Shown here piece by piece: positions 16,299 through 29,032 of a stretch of 64,000 bases of DNA (positions are counted from its first letter, which is position 1; every line of letters starts with the position of its first letter). The notes under the pieces are model-generated. The model ran no database searches and had not been told where the DNA came from. It saw nothing but the letters and a program-made list of their open reading frames with translations. The stretch comes from Alphaproteobacteria bacterium (GTDB lineage Bacteria; Pseudomonadota; Alphaproteobacteria; Rhizobiales; Aestuariivirgaceae), in contig JAHEBA010000265.1 of the NCBI GenBank assembly GCA_024642465.1, forward strand, positions 1 through 64,000. The letters are read 5' to 3'. A program made the translations under genes and the position numbers.

Positions 16299-16328
16299 TT
16301 GACTCCGGCGAAACTCCAACCCTACCAT
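16299..16328 (+). promoter_or_regulatory. Candidate sigma-70 promoter of the molybdoenzyme operon
   Basis: TTGACT at 16299-16304 and TACCAT at 16323-16328 are separated by 18 nt, and the first start codon is 30 nt downstream behind a GGAG ribosome binding site. It is the best match in the 100-nt gap before the operon. Pattern only. Confidence 0.4.
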
Positions 16329-16357: not shown

Positions 16358-17206
16358 ATGGCCGGTTACGCGCAGCCCACTTCACTGGCCGAGGCGGTCA
16401 CGCTACTCGGCGACGGCGGCTGGACCGTGCTGGCCGGCGGTACCGACGTTTACCCTGCGCTGGGCGAGACCCCGCTCACCTCTCCGGTCATGGACATTTC
16501 GCGCCTAGGGGATTTGCGCGGCATCGCGCCCTCGCCGGATGGCGGCATCCGCATCGGCGCGCTGACCACCTGGACCGACATCGTCCGCGCCAGCCTGCCG
16601 CCCGCCTTCAGGGCGCTGCAGCAGGCGGCCAGGGAGGTCGGTTCAGTCCAGATCCAGAACCGCGCCACGATCGCAGGCAACCTGTGCAACGCCTCGCCCG
16701 CAGCCGACGGCGTGCCGCCGCTTCTCGCCCTCGATGCACGCGTGGAGCTTGCCAGCCGGTCCGGATCCCGAACGTTGCCACTGTCGGATTTCATCCAGGG
16801 CAACCGGAAAACCGCCCGTGATTCTGGCGAATTACTTACTTTCATCCACGTTCCAGCAGCCGGATTGCGCGGAAATTCTGCCTTTTTCAAGCTGGGTTCC
16901 AGGCGCTATCTGGTCATTTCGATCGCCATGATTGCAGCAAGGCTGGCGGCGGACGGCAATGGCATCATCACCGATGCGGCGGTTGCGGTTGGCGCCTGCT
17001 CGGCGGTTGCGCAGCGGCTGCCAGCACTAGAATCCGCGCTCATCGGGAAAAATCTGCAAGCCGCTGCCGGAATCGCGGCGCCACAGCATCTCGCCGTGCT
17101 GTCGCCAATCGATGATGTGCGCGCACCAGCCGGTTACCGGATGGAAGCGGCACTGGAAGGCGTGCGCCGGGCGCTGACCATGGCCGGCGAAGGAGCAAGC
17201 GCATGA
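16358..17206 (+). CDS. FAD-binding subunit of a xanthine-dehydrogenase-family molybdoenzyme (CoxM-like)
   Basis: A 282-residue FAD subunit. LAGGTDVYPAL at 25-35 is the first FAD-binding loop and TIAGNLCNASPAADGVPPLLALDA the second, both characteristic of the CO-dehydrogenase flavoprotein/xanthine dehydrogenase medium-subunit family. It passes electrons from the [2Fe-2S] clusters of its partner to an acceptor. It overlaps the fused large subunit gene by 4 nt, so the two make one enzyme. It is first in the catabolic operon and follows a candidate promoter. Confidence 0.9.
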   Translation: MAGYAQPTSLAEAVTLLGDGGWTVLAGGTDVYPALGETPLTSPVMDISRLGDLRGIAPSPDGGIRIGALTTWTDIVRASLPPAFRALQQAAREVGSVQIQNRATIAGNLCNASPAADGVPPLLALDARVELASRSGSRTLPLSDFIQGNRKTARDSGELLTFIHVPAAGLRGNSAFFKLGSRRYLVISIAMIAARLAADGNGIITDAAVAVGACSAVAQRLPALESALIGKNLQAAAGIAAPQHLAVLSPIDDVRAPAGYRMEAALEGVRRALTMAGEGASA

Positions 17207-19962
17207 ACCGTCACGTCCCCCCGCCTGCCATTGCCTGCACCGTCAATGGCCGCAAGACCGAACTCAAGTCCTCGCCGCACGAGCGCCTGTCAGTCGTGCT
17301 GCGATGCGAGCTTGGCCTCACCGGCACCAAGGTCGGCTGCGACGCAGGCGACTGTGGCGCGTGCACCGTACTGGTAGATGGCGCACCGGTCTGCGCCTGT
17401 CTGACCGCAGCGGCGCAGGTGACCGGCTGCAGCGTCACCACCCTTGAAGGACTGTCGCAGGACGGCCGCCTGACCCGGCTGCAGGACGCCTTCCTCGAGT
17501 TCGGCGCGGCCCAGTGCGGCATCTGCACGCCGGGCATGCTGATGAGCGCGGCTGCACTGCTGGATGCAACGCCTGCGCCGTCGAAACGCGACGTCGAGGA
17601 TGCGCTGGGCGGTGTGCTTTGCCGCTGCACCGGCTACGCCAAGATCATCGACGCGGTGCTGTTTGCTGCAGGCTCGAACGCTGTGCGCTCACCTGCCCAG
17701 GCGGGCACCAGCGTCGGCCAGCCGATCCGCCGGGTCGATGGCGAACCCAAGGTCGATGGCCGCGAGCAGTTCGGCGCCGACGGCGTTCCGGCGGATGCCC
17801 TGATGGTGAAGTTGATCCGGTCGCCGCACCATCACGCCCGCTTTGAGATCGGCGACACAGCCACATTCCTGGACGCTCATCCCGGCCTTGTTGCGGTGAT
17901 GACCGCGGCGGATATTCCGGGCACCAACATCCACGGCACCATTCCGCCGTTTGCCGATCAGCCGGTGTTTGCCGAAAGCGTTGCGCGGTTTCGTGGTGAA
18001 GCGATTGCCATGGTGGTGGGCGAGCGCGAGGCGATTGCCGCGCTTGATATGAGCCAGTTTCCTGTGTCGTGGGAACCGCTCACCCACGCGCTCAAGCCTG
18101 CCGAGGCGCTCAACACCGGTTCGCCGCTGCTGCACCAGAACCGGGCCGGCAATGTCATGGTCCGCGGCATGGTGCAGAAGGGCAACGTCGATGACGGGCT
18201 GGCAAAGGCCACGCATGTCATCAAGCGGTCCTATTCGACGCCATTCGTCGAACATGCCTATATCGAACCGGAAGCGGGCTGGGCCGTGCGCGATGGCGAC
18301 ACCATCGTCATTCACGGCTGCACCCAGGCGCCGCACCTGGACCGCGAGTCGACCGCGCCTATCCTCGACCTTGCGGACAGCCAGGTGCGCATCGTGCCGT
18401 CGGCCTGCGGCGGCGGCTTCGGCTCGAAGCTTGACCTGTCGTTCCAGCCCTACATCGCGCTGGCGGCGTGGAAGCTGGGGCGGTCCTGCGGCATCGTCTA
18501 CACGCGGCAGGAGTCGATGCGCTCCACCACCAAGCGCCACCCGAGCGAGATCACGCTGAAGGCCGGCTGTGATGCGACCGGGCGGATAACAGGGTTCGAT
18601 TTCTCCGGTACGTTCAATACCGGCGCCTATGCGAGCTGGGGTCCGACCGTGGCGAACCGCGTGCCGGTTCATGCCTCGGGTCCGTTCCACATTGAAAACT
18701 ACCGGGCGCAGTCCGTTGCCGTGCATACGCATTGTGCGCCATCGGGTGCCTTCCGCGGCTTTGGCGTACCGCAATCGGCGGTGGCGCAGGAAAGCGTGTT
18801 CGACGAACTCGCCGACATTGCAGGCATCGACCGGTTGGAGTTCCGTCTCATCAACGCGCTCGACAACGGCCTGCCCACGGCGACGGGGCAGGTGTTCGAG
18901 TCTGGCGTCGGCATCAAGGCGTGCCTCGAGGCATTGCGCGATCCCTATGCGAAAGCACGCGAAGCAGCTGGCGCTTTCAACAAGAAAGGCGGTCACCTCA
19001 GGAAGGGCGTGGGGCTGGGCACCTGCTGGTATGGCTGCGGCAACACGTCGCTCCCAAATCCATCCACCATGAAGGTGGGCATCGATGCGGCGGGCACGGT
19101 GTGGCTGCACCAGGGCGCCATGGACATCGGCCAGGGCGCGAGCACGGTGATGGTGCAGATCATGGCGGATGCATTGGGCGTGCCGGCAGATGCAATCCGG
19201 CTCAAATCAGGCGACACGGCGATCACGCCCGATGCGGGCAAGACGTCGGCCTCGCGCCAGACGTTCGTGTCGGGCAATGCCACGCGGCTTGCCGGCGAAG
19301 CCTTGCGCGAACAGCTTCTGCGCCATGCCAACGTCGCGGCGGACGCCAGCATCCGGCTGGAGCCGGGCGCGCTGGTGCTGACCGACGGCGACGGCGAGCG
19401 GCGCATCGATCTTTCGGGCCTTGAAGCCGATCCGGAAGGCTACGTGTTCAAGGCAGTCGAAACCTATGACCCGCCCACCACGCCGCTGGATGAGAACGGC
19501 CAGGGTGAGCCCTACGCCGTGTTCGGCTATGGCGCACACATGATGGAGCTGACCGTCGACACCCGTCTCGGTACGGTGAAGCTTGACCGGCTGACGGCGG
19601 TACACGATGTGGGGCGCGCCATCAATCCGCTGCTGGTGGAAGGTCAGATCGAGGGCGGTGCCGCACAGGGCATTGGCCTCGCGCTGATGGAAGACTACAT
19701 CCCGGGCCGCACCGAGAACCTGCACGATTATCTAATTCCCACTTTCGGCGACATGCCGGAGGTGAAATCGATCATCGTCGAGGTGCCCGACCCGCACGGG
19801 CCCTATGGCGCGAAGGGGCTGGGCGAACACGTGCTGATACCAACCGCCCCGGCAATATTGAATGCCATTCGCGACGCTACCGGCGCATGCGTGCGTCATC
19901 TGCCTGCGACGCCGGATAAGGTGCTGGCGGCGATCCGGGCAAAGGAGCAGGGTGATGGCTAG
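17203..19962 (+). CDS. Fused [2Fe-2S]-molybdopterin subunit of a xanthine-dehydrogenase-family hydroxylase
   Basis: A 919-residue fusion of what are usually two subunits. Residues 1-165 form the small subunit: CX4CX2C plus one (Cys46, 51, 54, 64) for the plant-ferredoxin-type cluster, and CGIC...CRC (Cys105, 108, 140, 142) for the second. Residues from about 170 form the molybdopterin large subunit, with GGGFGSK, GAFRGFG and GAKGLGE, whose Glu875 matches the catalytic base that activates Mo-bound water. The enzyme would hydroxylate an N-heterocycle or aldehyde. The next gene resembles 6-hydroxynicotinate reductase, so a nicotinate-like heterocycle is a reasonable guess. It overlaps both neighbours. 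No signal peptide. Confidence 0.9.
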   Translation: MNRHVPPPAIACTVNGRKTELKSSPHERLSVVLRCELGLTGTKVGCDAGDCGACTVLVDGAPVCACLTAAAQVTGCSVTTLEGLSQDGRLTRLQDAFLEFGAAQCGICTPGMLMSAAALLDATPAPSKRDVEDALGGVLCRCTGYAKIIDAVLFAAGSNAVRSPAQAGTSVGQPIRRVDGEPKVDGREQFGADGVPADALMVKLIRSPHHHARFEIGDTATFLDAHPGLVAVMTAADIPGTNIHGTIPPFADQPVFAESVARFRGEAIAMVVGEREAIAALDMSQFPVSWEPLTHALKPAEALNTGSPLLHQNRAGNVMVRGMVQKGNVDDGLAKATHVIKRSYSTPFVEHAYIEPEAGWAVRDGDTIVIHGCTQAPHLDRESTAPILDLADSQVRIVPSACGGGFGSKLDLSFQPYIALAAWKLGRSCGIVYTRQESMRSTTKRHPSEITLKAGCDATGRITGFDFSGTFNTGAYASWGPTVANRVPVHASGPFHIENYRAQSVAVHTHCAPSGAFRGFGVPQSAVAQESVFDELADIAGIDRLEFRLINALDNGLPTATGQVFESGVGIKACLEALRDPYAKAREAAGAFNKKGGHLRKGVGLGTCWYGCGNTSLPNPSTMKVGIDAAGTVWLHQGAMDIGQGASTVMVQIMADALGVPADAIRLKSGDTAITPDAGKTSASRQTFVSGNATRLAGEALREQLLRHANVAADASIRLEPGALVLTDGDGERRIDLSGLEADPEGYVFKAVETYDPPTTPLDENGQGEPYAVFGYGAHMMELTVDTRLGTVKLDRLTAVHDVGRAINPLLVEGQIEGGAAQGIGLALMEDYIPGRTENLHDYLIPTFGDMPEVKSIIVEVPDPHGPYGAKGLGEHVLIPTAPAILNAIRDATGACVRHLPATPDKVLAAIRAKEQGDG

Positions 19963-21487
19963 TCCGGCGCGTGAAGGCGACAAGATCCGCTGCGATGCGT
20001 GTCCCGTGATGTGCTACATCGCGCCGGGCCGCTCCGGCGCCTGCGACCGCTACGCCAACGAGGATGGCAATCTCGTCCGTGTCGACCCGCTGGTGATCAT
20101 CGAGAAGACGAAAGCCATAGGCGGCGAACTGGTGCCGTTCCTGGACCGGGGCGCGGAATGGGACGGCGAGATCATCAACACCGACGACAGCTTCATCACT
20201 GCCATCGGCGCGGGCACCACTTACCCGGACTACAAGCCTGCGCCGTTCATCGTCTCGCGTCAGGTCGACGGCGTCGACATGATCACCGTGGTGACCGAGG
20301 GCATCTTCTCGTATTGCGGCGTCAAGGTGAAGATCGACACCGACCGGCACCTGGGGCCTGAGCGTGCGCTGGTGCGGGTGGACGGCGAGCCCATCGGCCA
20401 CGTCACCACGGCGGAATATGGCTCGCAGATGCTGTCGCTGGGTGGCGTGCATCACCTGACCGGCGGCGGCAAGAAGGAAGGCCGCGTCACTTGCGCCGCG
20501 CTGCTCGACCTGTGCAATGGCAGGCCGGTGGAAGTCGCCATCGACGAAGGCTCCACCGTGGTGATCGAGGCAGGCAAGCCGCCCATCGTCAACGGCGTGA
20601 AGGAAGAGCGCATGCGGGTGGGCTGCGGGTCGGCAACGGTCGGCATGTTCGCCTCGCAGTGGCACGGACTGGTCGATGAGGTGGTGGTGGTCGATGACCA
20701 CATCACCGGCGTCATTTCCGAACACCAGGCCGGCAAGGTGATCGGCTGGGCGCCCACCGGCATCAAGATCAAGGGCAGGCGCTCAACGCCCGGACGCTAT
20801 TTCCAGGTGGCCGAACCCGGCACCGGTTGGGGCGGCACCAATGTCGACGATCCGCTGGTCATTCTGGGCGACTTCGACCCCAAGGTGGCCAAGCCCGGCC
20901 AGTCGCTGCTGATGGTGTCCACGACGGGCGAGCAGTTCGCCTACTACGAACTGGGCGATGACCTGAAGCCGCAGAAGCAGGACATGCCAGACGGGCTGAT
21001 GAAGTCGGTGCGGCTGATCGAGGAGAACTGCGAACCGGCCCTGTGCACGGTGCTGTTCATGGGCGGCGCGGGTGGTTCGCTTCGCGCCGGGGTGACCGAG
21101 AACCCGGTCAAGCTGACCCGCTCGGTGAAGGACACGCTGACCCGCATCACCTGCGGTGGCGCACCGGCCTATGTCTGGCCCGGCGGCGGCATCACCATCA
21201 TGTCGGACGTGACGCTGCTGCCGGAAAACGCCTTCGGCTACGTGCCGACGCCGGCGCTGGTTGCGCCCATCGAGTTTACCATGCGCCGCGAGGACTACGA
21301 GGCGCTGGGCGGCCACATGAAGCACGTCATGCCGCTTGCCGAAGCGCGCGCCGGCAAGAAGGCCATCCAGAACGATCACGTGCTGGCCGGGCAAAAGGGT
21401 GCGGCCTCGAAGCAGGGCGTGCCATGGCCCACCGATGAGCGGCACTTCGGCTGGTCAAAGGCGGCGAAGAAGGAGCCCGGCACATGA
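19955..21487 (+). CDS. 6-hydroxynicotinate-reductase-like iron-sulfur protein
   Basis: A 510-residue protein of the family annotated as 6-hydroxynicotinate reductase. CX2CX3C plus a fourth Cys (Cys13, 16, 20, 30) begins the protein as a ferredoxin-like cluster site, followed by a long glycine-rich region with conserved GAGTTYPDYKPAPFIVSRQ and VTEGIFSYCGVKVKIDTD. In nicotinate fermenters the homologue reduces the hydroxylated pyridine ring to a tetrahydro form using ferredoxin. Here it directly follows a molybdenum hydroxylase (8-nt overlap) and overlaps the UPF0280 gene by 4 nt. The true substrate is not proven; the function is inferred from family and neighbours. The ATG at 19955 is chosen because upstream frame sequence is only the shadow of the previous gene. 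Confidence 0.75.
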   Translation: MASPAREGDKIRCDACPVMCYIAPGRSGACDRYANEDGNLVRVDPLVIIEKTKAIGGELVPFLDRGAEWDGEIINTDDSFITAIGAGTTYPDYKPAPFIVSRQVDGVDMITVVTEGIFSYCGVKVKIDTDRHLGPERALVRVDGEPIGHVTTAEYGSQMLSLGGVHHLTGGGKKEGRVTCAALLDLCNGRPVEVAIDEGSTVVIEAGKPPIVNGVKEERMRVGCGSATVGMFASQWHGLVDEVVVVDDHITGVISEHQAGKVIGWAPTGIKIKGRRSTPGRYFQVAEPGTGWGGTNVDDPLVILGDFDPKVAKPGQSLLMVSTTGEQFAYYELGDDLKPQKQDMPDGLMKSVRLIEENCEPALCTVLFMGGAGGSLRAGVTENPVKLTRSVKDTLTRITCGGAPAYVWPGGGITIMSDVTLLPENAFGYVPTPALVAPIEFTMRREDYEALGGHMKHVMPLAEARAGKKAIQNDHVLAGQKGAASKQGVPWPTDERHFGWSKAAKKEPGT

Positions 21488-22326
21488 GCATCCAGGCTGC
21501 CATGCTGCCTGACGGCAAGCGGCTGCACCTGCAGCACGGCCCCATCGACCTGATCATCGGGGCTGACGGGGAACCTGCGGAGGTGCGCCGTGCGTACATG
21601 GCGGCACGTGCCCGGTTCGAGACGGTGCTGGTGCGACTTTGCGAAGAGCTGGTGCTGCTGCGCACCGAGATGCCTGAACAGGGCCTGCCGCTGGAGGGGC
21701 CGGTGGCCCTGCGCATGGCTTGCGCCGTGCAGCCACACTGGCAGCAGCGGGTAACGCCGATGGCGGCGGTGGCCGGCGCCGTGGCCGACGAGATTCTGCA
21801 GGCCATGCTGCAGGCGGCGAGCTTGCGTCGCGCCTATGTCAACAATGGCGGCGACATTGCCCTTCATCTTGGCGTCCGGGAGCGGTTTTCCATTGCCTCG
21901 GCGAACGGGCTTGTGACGGTCGAGGCGGGTGATGGCGTTGGCGGTATTGCCACCTCCAGCCGGCATGGCCGGTCGCATTCGCTCGGTATTGCCGACAGCG
22001 TCACGGTGCTGGCGCGTACCGGCGCCGCGGCGGACGTGGCGGCGACCCTGATTGCCAACGCGGTCGACCTGCCGGGATCGCAGAAGGTCAACCGTAGGCC
22101 GGCGTGCGAGCTGTCGCCCGACAGCGACCTGCGCGACAGACTGGTCACGGTTGATGTGGCACCGCTCGATGAAGGCGAGACGGCCGTTGCGCTGGCCTGC
22201 GGTGTTGCATTGGCGCAGGAATTCCAGCGGCGGGGCTTGATCATGGCGGCCACTCTGGGCCTCAATAACAGTGTCGAACGGGTTGATCCCGTCACGCTGA
22301 TCGACAGGAAGTCAGCCCATGCCTGA
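21484..22326 (+). CDS. UPF0280 (ApbE-like) protein
   Basis: A 280-residue member of UPF0280, distantly related to ApbE flavin transferases. AYVNNGGDIALHL matches the ApbE-type GGD segment, and GGIATSSRHGRSHSLGIADSVTVLA is the second conserved block. ApbE proteins attach FMN to threonine of partner proteins, but this is not established for UPF0280. Its position between the reductase-like gene and the PF06684 pair, with overlaps at both ends (4 and 8 nt), indicates a role in the same pathway, perhaps maturing or assisting the reductase. Confidence 0.8.
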   Translation: MSIQAAMLPDGKRLHLQHGPIDLIIGADGEPAEVRRAYMAARARFETVLVRLCEELVLLRTEMPEQGLPLEGPVALRMACAVQPHWQQRVTPMAAVAGAVADEILQAMLQAASLRRAYVNNGGDIALHLGVRERFSIASANGLVTVEAGDGVGGIATSSRHGRSHSLGIADSVTVLARTGAAADVAATLIANAVDLPGSQKVNRRPACELSPDSDLRDRLVTVDVAPLDEGETAVALACGVALAQEFQRRGLIMAATLGLNNSVERVDPVTLIDRKSAHA

Positions 22327-22903
22327 GGTAAAGATCAGAAAGTCCCTCGTCGGTATCGAGGACATTTTCCACGAGGGTGGACCGGTGGCTGCCGAGCCGC
22401 ACCGGCGCGGCTTCATTGCCAAGGTGATCGAGAACCCGTTTGCCGGGCGATATGTCCAGGATATCCAGCCGTTCATGGAAGACCTGAAGCCCCTCGGCAT
22501 GGCCATGGCGGGGGAGCTCATCGCGGCAATGGACGTGCCGCCGGAGCGCATCGAAGGCTACGGCAAGGGCGCCATCGTGGGCGAGGCCGGCGAAACGGAG
22601 CATGCCGCCTTGTGGCATGCGCCGGGCGGTTACTCCATGCGCGAGCATGTGCCGGACTCGCTTGCCATCGTGCCGTCGACCAAGAAGGTGGGCGGGCCGG
22701 GCGCCCGGCTCGACGTGCCGGTAACACACGTAACGGCGTCTTACGTGCGTTCGCATTTCGATGCCATCGAGGTCGGCATCAACGACGCTCCGCGCGCCAA
22801 CGAGATGGTGGTGATCCTCGTGATGACCACGGGCCCGCGCGTGCACAACCGCGCGGGTGGCCTTGCGGCCAGGGACATCAAGCTGAGGGACGGTCAGAAA
22901 TGA
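22319..22903 (+). CDS. PF06684 'amino acid synthesis' family protein, copy 1
   Basis: A 194-residue protein of PF06684 (formerly DUF1185), whose known structures have a chorismate-mutase-like fold; no reaction has been firmly assigned. Conserved blocks are AKVIENPFAGRYVQDI, YGKGAIVGEAGETEHAALWH and SYVRSHFDAIEVGINDAPRANEMVV. It is paralogous to the next gene, which it overlaps by 4 nt, so a heteromeric complex is plausible. Within this operon it probably acts on the ring-reduced or ring-opened intermediate, which is inference. Confidence 0.85.
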   Translation: MPEVKIRKSLVGIEDIFHEGGPVAAEPHRRGFIAKVIENPFAGRYVQDIQPFMEDLKPLGMAMAGELIAAMDVPPERIEGYGKGAIVGEAGETEHAALWHAPGGYSMREHVPDSLAIVPSTKKVGGPGARLDVPVTHVTASYVRSHFDAIEVGINDAPRANEMVVILVMTTGPRVHNRAGGLAARDIKLRDGQK

Positions 22904-23487
22904 GCAAGGCCAGGATCAGGAAGATCGCAGTATTCGTCGACGAGATCCACACCGAGATGGGCAAGACGATCGATCCGCCTACGCGCCGCGCCGCCGCCGT
23001 GGCGGTGATCGAAAACCCCTTTGCCGGCAAGTATGTCGAGGATCTTTCGGACCTGATGGAGATCGGCGAGGAACTGGGCGGCCAGCTCGGCGAGCGTTGC
23101 GTGGCAGCGCTTGGCATATCGCCGTCACAGGCCGAGAGCTACGGCAAGGCCGCGCTGGTGGGTGAGAACGGCGAACTGGAACACGCCGCCGCCATTCTTC
23201 ACCCGAAGATGGGCGCCCCGCTCAGGAAGGCGGTGGAGAAGGGGGCGGCCCTGGTGCCGTCATCGAAGAAGCGCGGCGGCATGGGACAGGTGCTCGACAT
23301 TCCGCTTGGCCACAAGGATGCTGCTTACGTACGCTCTCACTTCGACGGCATGGAAGTGCAGATCAACGATGCGCCACGGGGCAACGAGATCATGGTGGCA
23401 GTGGCGGTAACGGATTCAGGCCGCCCGCTGCCGCGCGTTGGCGGACTGACCAAGGACGAGGCGAAGGGTGAAGACGGTCTTCGCTGA
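22900..23487 (+). CDS. PF06684 'amino acid synthesis' family protein, copy 2
   Basis: A 195-residue paralogue of the preceding gene with the same blocks: VAVIENPFAGKYVEDL, YGKAALVGENGELEHAAAILH, AYVRSHFDGMEVQINDAPRGNEIMV. The start ATG overlaps the previous stop as ATGA, indicating coupled translation and roughly equal amounts of both proteins. It differs in lacking the HAPGGYSMREHVPDS segment and having HPKMGAPLRKAVEKG instead, so the two have specialised. It is followed 59 nt later by the importer's binding-protein gene. Confidence 0.85.
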   Translation: MSKARIRKIAVFVDEIHTEMGKTIDPPTRRAAAVAVIENPFAGKYVEDLSDLMEIGEELGGQLGERCVAALGISPSQAESYGKAALVGENGELEHAAAILHPKMGAPLRKAVEKGAALVPSSKKRGGMGQVLDIPLGHKDAAYVRSHFDGMEVQINDAPRGNEIMVAVAVTDSGRPLPRVGGLTKDEAKGEDGLR

Positions 23488-23546
23488 AGAGACGGGGCGG
23501 TTGATAAACAAAAGGGTTCGACCCGGTTGAAGAGAAAGGGAGACGG

Positions 23547-24755
23547 ATGAAACTGTTCAGATTTGTTGCGGGGGCGATAGCTGCCGCCGTGGTTGGACTT
23601 GCGGCGATGGCTGCCCAGGCGGCCGATCCGATCAAGGTCGGCGAGATCAATTCATATACCCGCCTGCCGGCATTTACCGATCCCTACAAGAAGGGCTGGC
23701 AGCTTGCCGTGGACGAGATCAACGCGGCAGGCGGCATCAAGGGCCGCCCGCTCCAGATCATCGACCGCGACGATGCCGGCAAGCCCGGTGACGCGGTGAA
23801 GATCGCCGAGGAAATGGTGTCGAAGGAAAACGTCACCATGCTGGCCGGCACCTTCCTGTCGAACATCGGCCTCGCCGTGGCAGATTTCGCCAAGCAGAAC
23901 AAGACGCTCTTCCTGGCCTCCGAGCCACTGGCCGACGCGATCGTCTGGGAATCGGGCAACCGCTACACCTTCCGCCTGCGCCCCTCGACCACCATGCAGG
24001 CCGCCATGCTGGCCAAGGAAGCCGCCAAGACAGGCGCCAAGAAGTGGGCAACCGTCGCGCCCAACTATGCCTATGGCAAGGAAGCCGTCGCCGCCTTCAA
24101 GAAGGAGCTGACCAAGCTGGTGCCGGACGCCGAATTCGTCGAGGAGCAGTGGCCGCCGGTGTTCAAGATTGACGCTGGTCCCGTGGTCCGCGCGGTCGAG
24201 GCTGCCAAGCCTGAAGCCATCTTCAACGTCACCTTCGGCGGCGACCTTGCCCAGTTCGTGCGCGAAGGCAACCTGCGCGGCCTGTTCGAGGGCCGGACCG
24301 TGGTGTCGCTGCTGTCGGGCGAGCCGGAGTACCTCGAGCCGCTCAAGGACGAGGCGCCCAAGGGCTGGATCGTCACCGGCTATCCGGCGAAGGACATCGA
24401 CACGCCCGAGCACAAGGCGTTCTTCGATGCCTACATGAAGAAGTGGGGCGAGGCGCCCAAGCTCGGTTCGATCGTCGGCTACAACACGGTGAAGTCCATC
24501 GAGGCCCTGCTCAACAAGGCCGACAAGTATGACGCTGAGACGCTGGTCGAAACCATGAAGGGCCTTGAGGTTCCCTCGTCGCCGTCGGGTCCGTTCATGT
24601 ACCGGGCACAGGATCACCAGTCCACCATGGGCGCCTGGGTCGGCAAGACCGATGTCAAGGACGGCATGGGCGTGATGGTCGACTGGTTCTATGCCGATGG
24701 CGCTGACTACCAGCCGAGCGACGAGGAAGTCGCCAAGATGCGTCCGGCCGAATAA
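23547..24755 (+). CDS. Periplasmic substrate-binding protein of a Liv-type ABC importer
   Basis: A 402-residue type I periplasmic binding protein. The N-terminal MKLFRFVAGAIAAAVVGLAAMAAQA is a signal peptide cleaved before ADPIKVGEIN. The body has the leucine/amide-binding-protein pattern: FTDPYKKGWQLAVDEINAAGG, LAGTFLSNIGLAVADFA, KKWATVAPNYAYGKEAVAAF. It follows AAAGGGAGACGG, a good ribosome binding site. It would capture the operon's substrate in the periplasm and hand it to the downstream fused permease; Liv-family binding proteins also take aromatic acids, urea and amides. Confidence 0.9.
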   Translation: MKLFRFVAGAIAAAVVGLAAMAAQAADPIKVGEINSYTRLPAFTDPYKKGWQLAVDEINAAGGIKGRPLQIIDRDDAGKPGDAVKIAEEMVSKENVTMLAGTFLSNIGLAVADFAKQNKTLFLASEPLADAIVWESGNRYTFRLRPSTTMQAAMLAKEAAKTGAKKWATVAPNYAYGKEAVAAFKKELTKLVPDAEFVEEQWPPVFKIDAGPVVRAVEAAKPEAIFNVTFGGDLAQFVREGNLRGLFEGRTVVSLLSGEPEYLEPLKDEAPKGWIVTGYPAKDIDTPEHKAFFDAYMKKWGEAPKLGSIVGYNTVKSIEALLNKADKYDAETLVETMKGLEVPSSPSGPFMYRAQDHQSTMGAWVGKTDVKDGMGVMVDWFYADGADYQPSDEEVAKMRPAE

Positions 24756-24782
24756 GCCGGACGATTGACCGGGGCAACAACA

Positions 24783-24813
24783 GGCGCGGTGCAGCGCAGA
24801 AACTGCACCCGCC
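24783..24813 (+). repeat. Hairpin between binding-protein and permease genes
   Basis: GGCG plus GGTGCAG (24783-24794) pairs with CTGCACC plus CGCC (24803-24813), with one bulged C. There is no T-run. Such hairpins after binding-protein genes often stabilise the upstream mRNA and lower downstream expression. Confidence 0.5.
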
Positions 24814-24878
24814 TCATCCGGTTTGCCGCTTCCGGCGGCTGCCGGCCATGCACTGAGTGATCGCCGCGAGGGGCATTG

Positions 24879-26738
24879 ATGAGCTTCTATTTTGCCCAGT
24901 TCCTGACGGGCCTGGCCAGCGCCTCGTCGCTGTTCCTGGTGGCGTGCGGCCTGTCGCTGATCTTCGGCGTCACCCGCATCGTGAACTTCGCCCACGGCTC
25001 GTTCTACATGCTGGGTGCCTACCTGGCCTACACGCTGGTTCAGTACGTGCCCGGTTCGATCGTGGGCTTCTGGGGCTCAGTGATCGCCGCTGCACTGGTC
25101 GTGGGGCTGATCGGCGCGATCATCGAAGTGGTGATGCTGCGTCGCATCTACAACGCGCCGGAACTGTACCAGCTGGTCGCCACCTTCGGCATCGTGCTGA
25201 TCGTGCAGGACGCGGTACTGTGGATCTTTGGTGCCGAGGACAAGCTTGGTCCCCGCGCGCCCGGCCTTGATGGCATTGTGCGCATTTTCGGTGAACCAAT
25301 CCCGCAATACGACCTGCTGCTCGTCGCTCTCGGACCTGCCGTGCTGGGCGCCCTGTGGTTGCTGCTCAACCGGACCCGCTGGGGCGTGCTGGTGCGGGCC
25401 GCCACGCTGGACCGGGAAATGGTGGCCAGCCTCGGCGTCAATCAGTCGTGGCTGTTCACAACCGTTTTCTTTCTCGGCTCGTTCCTTGCCGGCCTGGGCG
25501 GAGCGCTGCAGGTGCCGCGCGTGTCGATCAACCTGCTGATGGACCTGTCAATCATCGCCGAAGCCTTCGTCGTCGTGGTCATCGGCGGCATGGGGTCGAT
25601 CCCCGGCGCCTTCGTGGCCGCCCTGCTGATCGGCGAACTCAATGCCTTCGGCGTATTGGTGCTGCCGCAGGCCACCATCGTGCTGGCCTTCGTGGTGATG
25701 GCCGTCGTTTTGGTGATCCGGCCCTATGGCCTGTTCGGCAAGCAGGAGACCGCCGCCCATGCCGCAGGTCAGGTGGAAGCCCCCATCCGTCCGGCGAGCC
25801 CGCTCAAGCGCACCATCGCACTGGCGCTGCTTGCCCTTCTGCTGGTGCTGCCTTTCCTGATGGGCGAGTTCGCGCTGGTGCTGGCCACGGACATTCTTAT
25901 CTTCGCCCTGTTCGCCGCCAGCCTGCACTTCATCATGGGCAATAGCGGCATGGTGTCGTTCGGCCACGCCGCCTATTTCGCGCTCGGTTGTTACGGCGCG
26001 GCTTTCCTCGTCAAGTATTTCGGCGGCTCGATGGAGATGGCGCTGGTGGCGGGCCCCCTGTTTGCGGGCCTTGGCGCGCTCGTCTTCGGCTGGTTCTGCG
26101 TACGCCTGTCCGGTGTCTACATGGCCATGCTGACGCTGGCGGCCGCCCAGATCGTGTGGTCCACCGCCTTCCAGTGGCAGGAACTGACCGGCGGCGACGA
26201 TGGCCTGCTGGGCATCTGGCCATCCGACTGGGCACGGTCCAAGACCGCCTTCTACTATCTCTCGCTGGCCCTGTGCGGCGGCGGCATCCTGCTGCTGCGC
26301 CGGATGATCTTCTCGCCCTTCGGCTATGCGCTGCGCGGCGGGCGCGACAACCCCAACCGCACCGAGTCCATAGGCATCGACCTTCGCGCCCAGCAATGGG
26401 CGGCGTTCGTCATCGCAGGCGTCTTTGCCGGTATCGCCGGCGGCGTCTACGTGTTCTCGAAGGGCTCCATCTTCCCGGACGAGGCGGCGATACCGCGCTC
26501 GGTCGATGCACTGGTGATGGTGCTGCTGGGGGGCGTGCAGACCTTGTCCGGTCCGATCGTGGGCGCCGGCGTCTTCCGGCTGCTCGAGGACGAGATCTCG
26601 CGGCTCGACTATTGGCGCGCCATCCTCGGCGGCATCATCGTGGGTATCGTGATCATCGCGCCTGAGGGCATCGCCGGGTTCATCAAGCGCATCGCCGTCA
26701 AGGCCGGGCTGGAGCGCGAGGGGGAGACGGCAGCATGA
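24879..26738 (+). CDS. Fused LivH-LivM ABC permease
   Basis: A 619-residue membrane protein joining the two permease subunits that are usually separate. Residues 1 to about 290 match LivH (GLSLIFGVTRIVNFAHGSFYMLGAY near the start, GGMGSIPGAFVAALLIGELNAF near its end). The rest from about 310 matches LivM (MGNSGMVSFGHAAYFALGCYGAAF, LRGGRDNPNRTESIGID, LLGGVQTLSGPIVGAGVF). The linker contains HAAGQVEAPIRPASPLK. It forms the channel in the inner membrane for the substrate held by the binding protein. ATG 24879 is preferred to the adjacent TTG. It overlaps livG by 4 nt. Confidence 0.9.
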   Translation: MSFYFAQFLTGLASASSLFLVACGLSLIFGVTRIVNFAHGSFYMLGAYLAYTLVQYVPGSIVGFWGSVIAAALVVGLIGAIIEVVMLRRIYNAPELYQLVATFGIVLIVQDAVLWIFGAEDKLGPRAPGLDGIVRIFGEPIPQYDLLLVALGPAVLGALWLLLNRTRWGVLVRAATLDREMVASLGVNQSWLFTTVFFLGSFLAGLGGALQVPRVSINLLMDLSIIAEAFVVVVIGGMGSIPGAFVAALLIGELNAFGVLVLPQATIVLAFVVMAVVLVIRPYGLFGKQETAAHAAGQVEAPIRPASPLKRTIALALLALLLVLPFLMGEFALVLATDILIFALFAASLHFIMGNSGMVSFGHAAYFALGCYGAAFLVKYFGGSMEMALVAGPLFAGLGALVFGWFCVRLSGVYMAMLTLAAAQIVWSTAFQWQELTGGDDGLLGIWPSDWARSKTAFYYLSLALCGGGILLLRRMIFSPFGYALRGGRDNPNRTESIGIDLRAQQWAAFVIAGVFAGIAGGVYVFSKGSIFPDEAAIPRSVDALVMVLLGGVQTLSGPIVGAGVFRLLEDEISRLDYWRAILGGIIVGIVIIAPEGIAGFIKRIAVKAGLEREGETAA

Positions 26739-27514
26739 CCACGCCGGTCCTTTCCGTCCGCCACCTGTCCAAGTCGTTCGGCGGCCTGCAGGCCGTCTCC
26801 GATGTCTCGTTTGACCTGGCCGCGGGTGAACTGCTCGCCCTGATCGGACCGAACGGTGCCGGCAAGACCACCTGCTTCAACATGCTCAACGGCCAGCTCA
26901 AGGCCGACAGTGGCGAGGTGAAGCTGAACGGCGAAAGCATCCTCGGCCTGTCTCCACGGCGCATCTGGCGCAAGGGCGTGGGCCGAACCTTCCAGATTAC
27001 CGCCACCTATGCCTCGATGACCGTGCGCGAGAACGTGCAGATGGCGCTGATCTCGAATGCGCGCCAGACCTGGAACCTGTGGTCGAGGGCGTCGGCATTG
27101 CACGTCAACAGGGCCAACGATCTGCTTGAACTGGTCGGCATGGCGGACCAGGCCGAGCGCGCCGCCGCCATCCTCGCCTATGGCGACCTGAAGCGGCTTG
27201 AGCTTGCCATTGCGCTGGCCCACGACCCGAAACTGTTGCTGATGGACGAACCTACTGCCGGCATGGCGCCCCGGGAGCGCGTCCGCCTGATGCAGCTCAC
27301 CGCCGGCATCGTCAAGGACCAGGGCATCTCGGTGCTGTTCACCGAACACGACATGGACGTGGTGTTTGCACATGCCCACCGCATCATGGTGCTCAACCGC
27401 GGCGAGCTGATTGCCTCCGGCAGCGTCGACGAGATCCGCAACGATGCCAGGGTGCAGGAAGTCTATCTGGGTGGCGGCCGCCTGTTCGAGGAAAAGGGCA
27501 AGGGCCATGGCTGA
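26735..27514 (+). CDS. Liv-type ABC importer ATPase (LivG-like)
   Basis: A 259-residue ATPase. Walker A is GPNGAGKTT, the Q-loop region follows FQITATYASMTVRENV, the signature is the degenerate AYGDLKRLELA usual for LivG proteins, Walker B is LLLMDEPTAGM, and the switch His lies in FTEHDMDVV. It energises the fused permease together with the LivF-like protein. It overlaps the permease (4 nt) and livF (8 nt), so the importer subunits are translationally coupled. Confidence 0.92.
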   Translation: MTTPVLSVRHLSKSFGGLQAVSDVSFDLAAGELLALIGPNGAGKTTCFNMLNGQLKADSGEVKLNGESILGLSPRRIWRKGVGRTFQITATYASMTVRENVQMALISNARQTWNLWSRASALHVNRANDLLELVGMADQAERAAAILAYGDLKRLELAIALAHDPKLLLMDEPTAGMAPRERVRLMQLTAGIVKDQGISVLFTEHDMDVVFAHAHRIMVLNRGELIASGSVDEIRNDARVQEVYLGGGRLFEEKGKGHG

Positions 27515-28220
27515 CCGGATGCTCGTTCTCGACAATGTAAATGCCTACTATGGCAAGGCCCACATCCTGCACGACCTGTCGTTCTCCATTGGCAAGGGCG
27601 AGGTGGTGGCGCTGCTGGGCCGCAACGGGGCCGGCAAGACCACCACCATGCGTTCGATCATGCAACTGGTGCGCCCGGCCTCCGGAACGGTGAGCTTCGA
27701 GGGCACGGACATCACTCGCTGGCCCACTCACAAGGTGGCGCGCGCCGGGCTTGGATATGTGCCCGAGGAACGCCGCATCTTCGCCGATCTGAGCGTCATG
27801 GAGAACCTCGAAGTGGGCCGCCAACCGCACCGCGACGGCTACCCGGACTGGACGGTGGAGCACATGTTCGAGCTGTTCCCCAATCTGTCCGAGAGGCGCG
27901 GCAATCGAGGCAAGCAGTTATCCGGCGGCGAACAGCAGATGCTCACTATCGCACGTACGCTGATGGGCAATCCGAAGCTGCTGTTGCTGGATGAACCGTC
28001 GGAGGGCATCGCGCCGGTTATCGTCGAGCAGATGGCCGAGACCCTGCTCGAGATCAAGGCCAAAGGGCTGACGGTGCTGCTGTCGGAGCAGAACCTGCAC
28101 TTTGCCCGCATCGTCGCCGACCGGGCGGTGATCATCGAAAGCGGCACGGCGGTGTTCGACGGGTCATTCGAAGAACTGGAAAGCCAGCAGGAGATCCGCG
28201 ACCAGTATTTGTCGGTCTAG
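27507..28220 (+). CDS. Liv-type ABC importer ATPase (LivF-like)
   Basis: A 237-residue ATPase. Walker A is GRNGAGKTTT, the signature is LSGGEQQMLTIAR, Walker B is LLLLDEPSEGI, and the switch segment is LLSEQNLHFA with Gln-Asn in place of His, as is common in LivF. The ATG at 27507 starts MADRMLVLDNVNAYYGKAHIL. It is the last gene of the operon. Its TAG shares the palindrome CTAG with the stop of the convergent creatininase gene, a 4-nt overlap, leaving no room for a private terminator. Confidence 0.92.
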   Translation: MADRMLVLDNVNAYYGKAHILHDLSFSIGKGEVVALLGRNGAGKTTTMRSIMQLVRPASGTVSFEGTDITRWPTHKVARAGLGYVPEERRIFADLSVMENLEVGRQPHRDGYPDWTVEHMFELFPNLSERRGNRGKQLSGGEQQMLTIARTLMGNPKLLLLDEPSEGIAPVIVEQMAETLLEIKAKGLTVLLSEQNLHFARIVADRAVIIESGTAVFDGSFEELESQQEIRDQYLSV

Positions 28221-29032
28221 TTCCCGCTGAACCAATCGGGCTCCAGCCGGTCCACGTCCCTGAGCAGTTCGATGAACCCGCCCGACTGGTGCGCTATCAC
28301 TGCCCGGCCCTTGTCCGCCGTTGCGGCAGCCGCATTGCCGGCAACCCCGGCGGCGTTGAGGTCATGCATCATCCAGCCGAACCGGTGCGGGCCGTAGGCG
28401 CGCAGGTGGGTCATCGAACCGGCAAGCTTCCTTTGAAGGGAACCAAAATCTTCAGCCTTTTCCATGTTCACCGAAGCAGGGCAGTGGGTCAGCATGATCG
28501 ATGTTTCGATGTCGCCGCCATGAATGCCGAAGCGGATTTCCTCGTCGCTGAACAGCCCTGCCGGCGTGCCGAACCGGGACCAGGCCGTCGCAACGCACAG
28601 CATCCCGAGTTCCGCGCGGGCGCGCATGATCACCGTGTCCACCACGGGCGTGTTGCCGCCGTGCGAGCTCACGATCACCAGCTTGCGCAGCCCGTGCGCC
28701 TTGAGGTTTGCGGCGATGGAGAACCACTTGTCGGCAAGGTCCGCAGGATCGGCCGATACGGTGCCGGGGCTGTCTCCATGTTCGGCAGACCAGCCGATTT
28801 CCTCGACCGGCAGGAACGTCACGGAAAGGTTGTCTGGCAGTTGCTCGATGCAGGCCGCAATCATGGCCCGGGCAATATCGGCGTCGGTGGAAGCGGGCAA
28901 ATGGGGCCCGTGCTGCTCGGTTGCGGCAACCGGCAACACCGCGATCCACCCACCGGTGTCCGACGCCGCGATGGCTTCAGCCGTCATGTCTGTCCACTGG
29001 GGGGCCGGTTGCACGGGCGTCTCGTCTTGCAA
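28217..29032 (-). CDS. Creatininase-family amidohydrolase
   Basis: A 271-residue metal hydrolase. Glu39 and His41 in ATEQHGPHLP, the Asp of STDAD (about 50), His of SSHGGN and Glu of HGGDIETS match the two-metal site of creatininase. The family opens cyclic amides or acts on formamides in riboflavin, mycofactocin and heterocycle pathways. Lying convergent with the heterocycle operon, it could hydrolyse a lactam or amide intermediate after ring reduction, which is inference from position. It overlaps livF by 4 nt at its 3' end. Confidence 0.85.
   Translation of the reverse strand: MQDETPVQPAPQWTDMTAEAIAASDTGGWIAVLPVAATEQHGPHLPASTDADIARAMIAACIEQLPDNLSVTFLPVEEIGWSAEHGDSPGTVSADPADLADKWFSIAANLKAHGLRKLVIVSSHGGNTPVVDTVIMRARAELGMLCVATAWSRFGTPAGLFSDEEIRFGIHGGDIETSIMLTHCPASVNMEKAEDFGSLQRKLAGSMTHLRAYGPHRFGWMMHDLNAAGVAGNAAAATADKGRAVIAHQSGGFIELLRDVDRLEPDWFSGN

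Follow-up and report, generated by a model that had tools for sequence, protein, structure and literature searches.

What does the gene cluster at positions 16358–29032 of the stretch of DNA analysed here (the window, 64,000 nucleotides in all) degrade, and what do the UPF0280 protein and the two PF06684 proteins that it encodes contribute to that degradation? A sequence-only reading had assigned the cluster to an unspecified N-heterocycle, with UPF0280 and the PF06684 pair standing in for an enamidase. Comparison with homologous loci leads us to a more specific reading, which we hold with a probability of about 0.8: the cluster would encode the first steps of aerobic nicotinate catabolism as in Eubacterium barkeri and Azorhizobium, with the UPF0280 protein (gene D) proposed as a maturation factor of 6-hydroxynicotinate reductase (HnR, gene C). 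The substrate thereby becomes a direct prediction, nicotinate.

Gene content and homologous loci

Eleven genes lie in the interval; all run on the plus strand except one, which is convergent, and neighbouring genes mostly overlap by a few bases in an operon-like arrangement (Table 1). Every family named in the sequence-only reading was identified there. Gene C was taken to start at the in-frame ATG at 19955 (its longest open reading frame begins at 19862) and gene F at 22900, the listed reading frame for the latter (22612–23487) beginning too early. A consensus scan returned one promoter-like site (16299–16328, 29 bases upstream of gene A) with 1.9 expected by chance, and hence no evidence of a promoter.

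Table 1 Genes of the cluster, with positions in the window and supporting family matches
Gene	Positions	Strand	Assignment	Family matches
A	16358..17206	+	FAD subunit of Mo-hydroxylase, candidate nicotinate 6-hydroxylase	PF00941 1.1e-43, PF03450
B	17203..19962	+	Second subunit of this hydroxylase, [2Fe-2S] and molybdopterin parts fused	PF01799, PF01315, PF02738, PF20256
C	19955..21487	+	6-hydroxynicotinate reductase (HnR) homologue, 510 residues	
D	21484..22326	+	UPF0280/COG2122 protein, ApbE-like fold (model), proposed HnR maturation factor	NF003322
E	22319..22903	+	PF06684 protein, E-type (behind UPF0280)	PF06684 2.4e-69, 232.7 bits, cut-off 27
F	22900..23487	+	PF06684 protein, F-type (with enamidase)	PF06684 251.1 bits, cut-off 27
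G	23547..24755	+	Periplasmic binding protein of importer	PF13458 1.3e-65
H	24876..26738	+	Fused double permease, LivH+LivM / UrtB+UrtC type	PF02653, two stretches
I	26735..27514	+	Importer ATPase 1	PF00005, PF12399
J	27507..28220	+	Importer ATPase 2	PF00005
K	28217..29032	-	Creatininase-family hydrolase, convergent neighbour	PF02633 9.8e-60

To place the cluster among its homologues, genome contigs were scanned with gene C, which matched 200 stretches. The best 80 of these 200, termed related loci, come chiefly from Mesorhizobium and other Alphaproteobacteria, with a few contributed by Gammaproteobacteria (Granulosicoccus) and a single contig that bears the title Acidobacteria; because they are mostly Mesorhizobium, counts of loci are not independent of one another. 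Plasmid records yielded 26 further homologues of C, four loci of which were examined in detail, and two even whole-genome samples covered 190 genomes of the class and 398 of the phylum. The set of 108 HnR loci used below combines the best 80 of 200 related loci with the four plasmid loci and stretches from 24 of the 28 HnR genomes of the class sample (of the other four, G000 is the window genome, and G064, G087, and G071 were left out around HnR, although the enamidase contig of G071 was included). Loci were counted by tblastn, because gene calls held spurious antisense reading frames in this GC-rich DNA, at identity thresholds of our own choice (among them HnR 55%, enamidase 55%, HyuA 50%, and UPF0280 40%, with a minimum query coverage of 15%).

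The sequence-only reading had linked import with hydroxylation and ring reduction in a single unit and had named rare joint occurrence of the homologues as the observation that would speak against it. The core families co-occur strongly, an outcome in favour of that reading, and most related loci (best 80 of 200) have gene A next to B and C. Genes G–J encode an ABC importer of the Liv/Urt type with a fused permease; a G-type binding protein (at least 50% identical) is present in 17 of the 108 HnR loci, which include the best 80 of 200, and another Liv-type binding protein (LivK2) in 40 of them. Among the NCBIfam equivalogs for branched-chain amino acid and urea uptake, G reached neither the UrtA cut-off (77.8 bits, cut-off 492.75) nor that of the LivK type (64.2 bits, cut-off 477). 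The convergent creatininase-type hydrolase, listed with the other genes in the sequence-only reading, has counterparts in just 3 of the best 80 of 200 related loci; K was therefore rejected as a member of the pathway and is probably peripheral to it.

Substrate, hydroxylation, and ring opening

Gene C owes the name HnR to its neighbouring genes and to its homologues in plasmid records, 17 of 26 of which are annotated "6-hydroxynicotinate reductase". Searches of Pfam and NCBIfam at E ≤ 0.001 returned no model for it, and neither C nor its profile gave a credible match in the PDB. For the HnR homologue of strain SG-6C, an identity of 42% to the E. barkeri enzyme is reported in PMC3511419. Eight cysteines are invariant across an alignment of 25 HnR rows (4, 7, 11, 21, 112, 171, 215, and 350, numbered from window position 19982), a pattern that is compatible with Fe-S clusters. 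An AlphaFold model of HnR was too poor (pLDDT 49.7) and was set aside. A ferredoxin-NADP reductase gene, a possible electron source, lies near HnR in three loci (L088, L090, and L091); the window cluster holds none.

Nicotinate is most likely the substrate of the cluster, because HnR modules elsewhere sit with an enamidase, with a NicA/NicB-type dehydrogenase, or with a nicotinamidase, and the heterocycle thus no longer needs to be left unspecified as it had been in the sequence-only reading. An enamidase (at least 55% identical) is encoded in 17 of the 108 HnR loci, the best 80 of 200 included; in the related locus L015, a protein of 389 residues matches the E. barkeri enamidase 2vun at 2.2e-107. 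The window genome encodes its own enamidase on another contig (C85), directly behind a MarR regulator gene; this protein is 74% identical to the L015 enamidase and matches 2vun at 2.5e-104. The earlier statement that enamidase and known downstream nicotinate genes are missing consequently holds for the interval and fails for the genome. Across the class sample, a close enamidase (at least 66%) was found in only 10 of the 28 genomes with HnR, a count that speaks against the nicotinate reading. A nicotinamidase or a homologue of it is found in 55 of the best 80 of 200 related loci, and the nicotinamidase of one HnR-module locus scores 217.6 bits (cut-off 174). MarR regulators also lie with the HnR module in other loci, the one in L089 being annotated NicR. 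As a separate observation, a gene of the aldehyde:ferredoxin oxidoreductase family lies near the enamidase in L012, L015, and L159, and this family is present in 7 of the best 80 of 200 related loci.

Since 17 of the 108 HnR loci (best 80 of 200 included) hold HnR and enamidase together, along with UPF0280 and PF06684, the latter two families accompany the enamidase rather than replace it. The earlier proposal, that UPF0280 and the PF06684 pair open the ring of some other heterocycle in place of an enamidase, is accordingly very improbable, although the three genes do stand directly behind HnR and 61 of the same 108 loci show neither enamidase nor HyuA/HyuB within the stretch fetched, many of these stretches stopping short at a contig end or at the limit of the 10 kb flank. 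The enamidase of the window genome counts against this proposal as well, as does the predicted fold of UPF0280, which is that of ApbE and no known hydrolase fold.

A different substitute for the enamidase is suggested by caprolactamase-like HyuA/HyuB genes, which probably encode another ring opener, possibly an ATP-dependent one. HyuA or HyuB occurs in 30 of the 108 HnR loci (best 80 of 200 included), never together with an enamidase; these loci include L028, L074, L077, L088, L089, L091, L139, L140, and L163. Both proteins are closest to the caprolactamase CapA/CapB, with 482.5 and 309.2 bits, each short of the equivalog cut-off of 1000. The expected product of HnR, 1,4,5,6-tetrahydro-6-oxonicotinate (THON), is a lactam, and ATP-dependent lactam opening in place of the enamidase is therefore a fair prediction for these loci.

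The molybdenum hydroxylase encoded by A and B belongs to the xanthine dehydrogenase family. The best PDB match of B is an aldehyde oxidoreductase (1dgj, 2.3e-122), the nicotinate dehydrogenase 3hrd_A being weaker (2.5e-66), which counts against the nicotinate reading. Whereas the nicotinate dehydrogenase of E. barkeri consists of four subunits with a split Mo subunit (3hrd_A and 3hrd_B), here an FAD subunit is combined with a fused Fe-S/Mo subunit. In two loci (L090 and L091), NicA/NicB-type genes hold the place of the hydroxylase beside HnR, UPF0280, two PF06684 genes, and the transporter; as annotated in L091, NicA/NicB differ from A–B in subunit make-up and include cytochrome c domains. A/B and NicB never co-occur among the 108 HnR loci (best 80 of 200 included), NicB being present in two only. 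The window genome holds no NicB orthologue (best match 29%) and its HyuA homologues are only 34–35% identical, so A–B is the candidate nicotinate hydroxylase and the enamidase the candidate ring opener.

The pathway that we propose would start with import of nicotinate by G–J and its hydroxylation to 6-hydroxynicotinate by A–B, followed by reduction of 6-hydroxynicotinate to THON by HnR and opening of THON to 2-formylglutarate by the C85 enamidase encoded on the other contig. Gene D would serve the maturation of HnR, most simply by fixing its flavin or by loading an activated group on it. The PF06684 proteins may be small accessory enzymes, E acting near the reduction and F near the ring opening, perhaps on lactam, lactol, or enol intermediates.

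It is unlikely that another pyridine or lactam (such as isonicotinate, a nicotinate derivative with substituents, or a pyrimidine) is degraded by nicotinate-like enzymes that have shifted in specificity. Such a shift would fit with a hydroxylase A–B that is not close to known nicotinate dehydrogenases, with the separation of enamidase and HnR on different contigs of the window genome, and with the addition of a Rieske oxygenase in some HnR loci (7 of the best 80 of 200 related loci, one of the four plasmid loci, and 3 of the 24 genome stretches), but the company that the module keeps elsewhere (enamidase, NicA/NicB, and nicotinamidase) and the retention of a close enamidase by the window genome both favour nicotinate. 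Where its position was recorded (L088, L140, L141, and L165), the gene for the Rieske-type ring-hydroxylating oxygenase is part of the HnR module itself and separates UPF0280/PF06684 from the transporter.

UPF0280 as a proposed partner of HnR

Gene D scores 346.4 bits on NF003322 (cut-off 290), and UPF0280 is adjacent to HnR in 107 of the 108 HnR loci (best 80 of 200 included), the one miss (L035) being a contig that stops at the end of HnR. Within the class sample, HnR is present in 28 of 190 genomes and UPF0280 (NF003322) in 32 at E ≤ 0.001, in 26 of them above the cut-off; these 32 are the same 28 genomes and four more with weak matches (4.6e-7 to 6.5e-4), and in G064 and G087 the UPF0280 gene is truncated by contig ends and scores lower. 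In the phylum sample, HnR is present in 32 of 398 genomes; exactly these 32 have a UPF0280 match above the cut-off, and the two matches outside them are weak. Altogether, 56 distinct genomes carry both genes (four being common to both samples) and none carries one alone at cut-off strength, counts that come from species of related groups and hence from events that are not independent. The UPF0280 gene, or a fragment of it, always lies downstream of HnR on the same strand, at 6 to 192 bases in the class sample and at −30 to 570 in the phylum sample. A limited literature search (UPF0280, COG2122, and hydroxynicotinate with ApbE) found no paper that links UPF0280 to HnR. We favour with moderate confidence a role for UPF0280 as a maturation factor of HnR.

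By its AlphaFold model (built on 28 rows, mean pLDDT 93.3), D is predicted to have the two-T-fold architecture of ApbE. The model matches the flavin transferases ApbE, Ftp, and FmnB at Z-scores of 13.9–16.2 over 201–212 residues, the score falling to 7.8 for the other T-fold proteins that come after them, and the D profile matches 16 ApbE sequences with 92.5% probability (E 4.9e-7 over 95 columns). DVU1097 (2o34), a UPF0280 structure of homocysteine synthesis and a member of the same family as D, gives a Z-score of 20.2 at 21% identity.

The conserved catalytic residues of ApbE are Ser241, His257, and Asp285 (V. cholerae numbering), as given in a review (PMC12052999). Beyond the fold, D has in common with ApbE, Ftp, and FmnB the Ser and Asp positions and the GGD/GGE and ADxxAT motifs: S158 (in ATS) and D184 (in ADxxAT) are invariant in 28 of 28 UPF0280 rows and align to the ApbE Ser and Asp positions. 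The HxIDPxTG loop with the general-base histidine is absent from D, where the alignment shows a gap (a histidine at D165 occurs in 10 of the 28 rows only), and the ApbE target motif D-x-x-[ST]-G-A-[ST] was found in none of the 25 HnR rows, nor were two looser patterns. Ordinary ApbE chemistry is doubtful because D lacks the histidine loop and HnR lacks the target motif, and UPF0280 as a simple ApbE was ruled out on the same two grounds.

Our tentative suggestion is that UPF0280/COG2122 is a dedicated, non-canonical ApbE-type enzyme that would install a covalent flavin, or an activated group, on HnR in the cytosol. The HnR of E. barkeri is reported to contain a covalently bound flavin and Fe-S clusters (Alhapel 2006). 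If the suggestion is true, DUF39 would be modified in the same way by the COG2122 proteins linked to it in sulfate reducers and methanogens, and a single function would cover the whole family. Possibly, UPF0280 is instead no flavin transferase and acts on HnR as a sulfur, persulfide, or Fe-S loading factor, a role with which the missing catalytic histidine of D and the eight invariant cysteines of HnR would agree, and with which a fold and Ser and Asp positions like those of flavin transferases, and the flavin that HnR reportedly carries, would agree less well. The homocysteine synthesis of D. vulgaris is relevant here: according to PMC5764234, COG2122 is needed for it together with DUF39 and NIL/ferredoxin, and the fitness of COG2122 tracks that of DUF39 (r = 0.98). 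According to the same source, the ApbE homology of COG2122 seems not to extend to the flavin-binding region, persulfide formation is an alternative proposal (made by others for COG2122 and DUF39 in methanogens), and the choice between ApbE-like and persulfide chemistry is disputed. The partner of COG2122 in homocysteine synthesis is DUF39 with NIL/ferredoxin, whereas here it is HnR; none of the 299 Pseudomonadota genomes that were searched holds PF01837 (DUF39), and three HnR proteins run through hmmscan (E ≤ 10) gave no hit to it. A simple two-gene test of UPF0280/COG2122, outside methionine synthesis, is offered by its exact co-occurrence with HnR, an enzyme that reportedly carries a covalent flavin.

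PF06684 proteins and comparison with known systems

The PF06684 proteins split by identity into an E-type, behind UPF0280, and an F-type. The nearest PDB entry is 3byq for E (6.7e-52) and 2qtp (SPO0826) for F, the latter match (1.8e-99) being orthologue-like. The F-type travels with the enamidase: among the 108 HnR loci (best 80 of 200 included), all 17 loci that combine HnR with an enamidase hold it, compared to 3 of the 30 with HnR and HyuA/HyuB; the E-type is present in 24 of these 30. Counting all enamidase loci, 19 of 21 hold an F-type gene, and the genomes of the other two (the window's own, L086, and G082, L145) have it on another contig. PF06684 is not strictly needed, because 2 of the 28 genomes in which the class sample has HnR lack any PF06684 protein; in the same sample, eleven genomes have PF06684 without HnR.

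Further PF06684 genes occur in other surroundings, of which a few were scanned for neighbours. The window genome has a third, distant one (G000:C52:10362-10886; L087:8363), which is 35% identical to F and follows a gene for an aldehyde dehydrogenase at a distance of about 1 kb downstream. At another place in an HnR genome (L156:5190-10268), PF06684 is found with an aldehyde dehydrogenase, a luciferase-like monooxygenase, a flavin reductase, and an alpha/beta hydrolase, a cluster that we take to resemble the trigonelline (Tgn) genes. PF06684 also stands beside a luciferase-like monooxygenase in L151 and adjoins a 38% enamidase homologue in L146. We know of no proven reaction for the PF06684 proteins BB2672, SPO0826, HcdD, and TgnF. 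According to PMC7913881, HcdD of 7-hydroxycoumarin breakdown belongs to the PF06684 family and to an operon that reduces and then opens a lactone ring, an effect of HcdD was sought and none shown, and TgnF is said to stimulate semialdehyde oxidation. The reduce-then-open order of the HcdD operon, on a lactone ring, is like the order proposed for our cluster, and the thread common to these contexts may be ring-opened aldehyde acids or their cyclic forms.

SPO0826, like F, lies beside a Liv-type ABC transporter. PMC2954203 treats BB2672 and SPO0826 as PF06684 proteins and takes the neighbours of SPO0826 to serve the transport of branched-chain amino acids; Pfam calls PF06684 (AA_synth, DUF1185) "Amino acid synthesis", partly on the basis of such neighbouring "branched-chain amino acid" transporters (PMC2954203). 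Because a transporter of this kind belongs to a probable nicotinate cluster here, the name may mislead annotation.

The nicotinate fermentation of E. barkeri reportedly follows a route from Mo-hydroxylase through HnR and enamidase to 2-formylglutarate (Alhapel 2006). That route is anaerobic, whereas the pathway of the window is proposed to be aerobic with the same order of Mo-hydroxylase, HnR, and enamidase. The comparable published cluster is that for nicotinate degradation in Azorhizobium caulinodans and Bradyrhizobiaceae SG-6C, which, according to PMC3511419, also contains uncharacterised genes. In comparison with that cluster, the enamidase is here on another contig and two PF06684 genes are present. 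The kind of cluster is already known (PMC3511419), with the enamidase displaced in the window genome, and the UPF0280–HnR pair is its unexplained, testable part.
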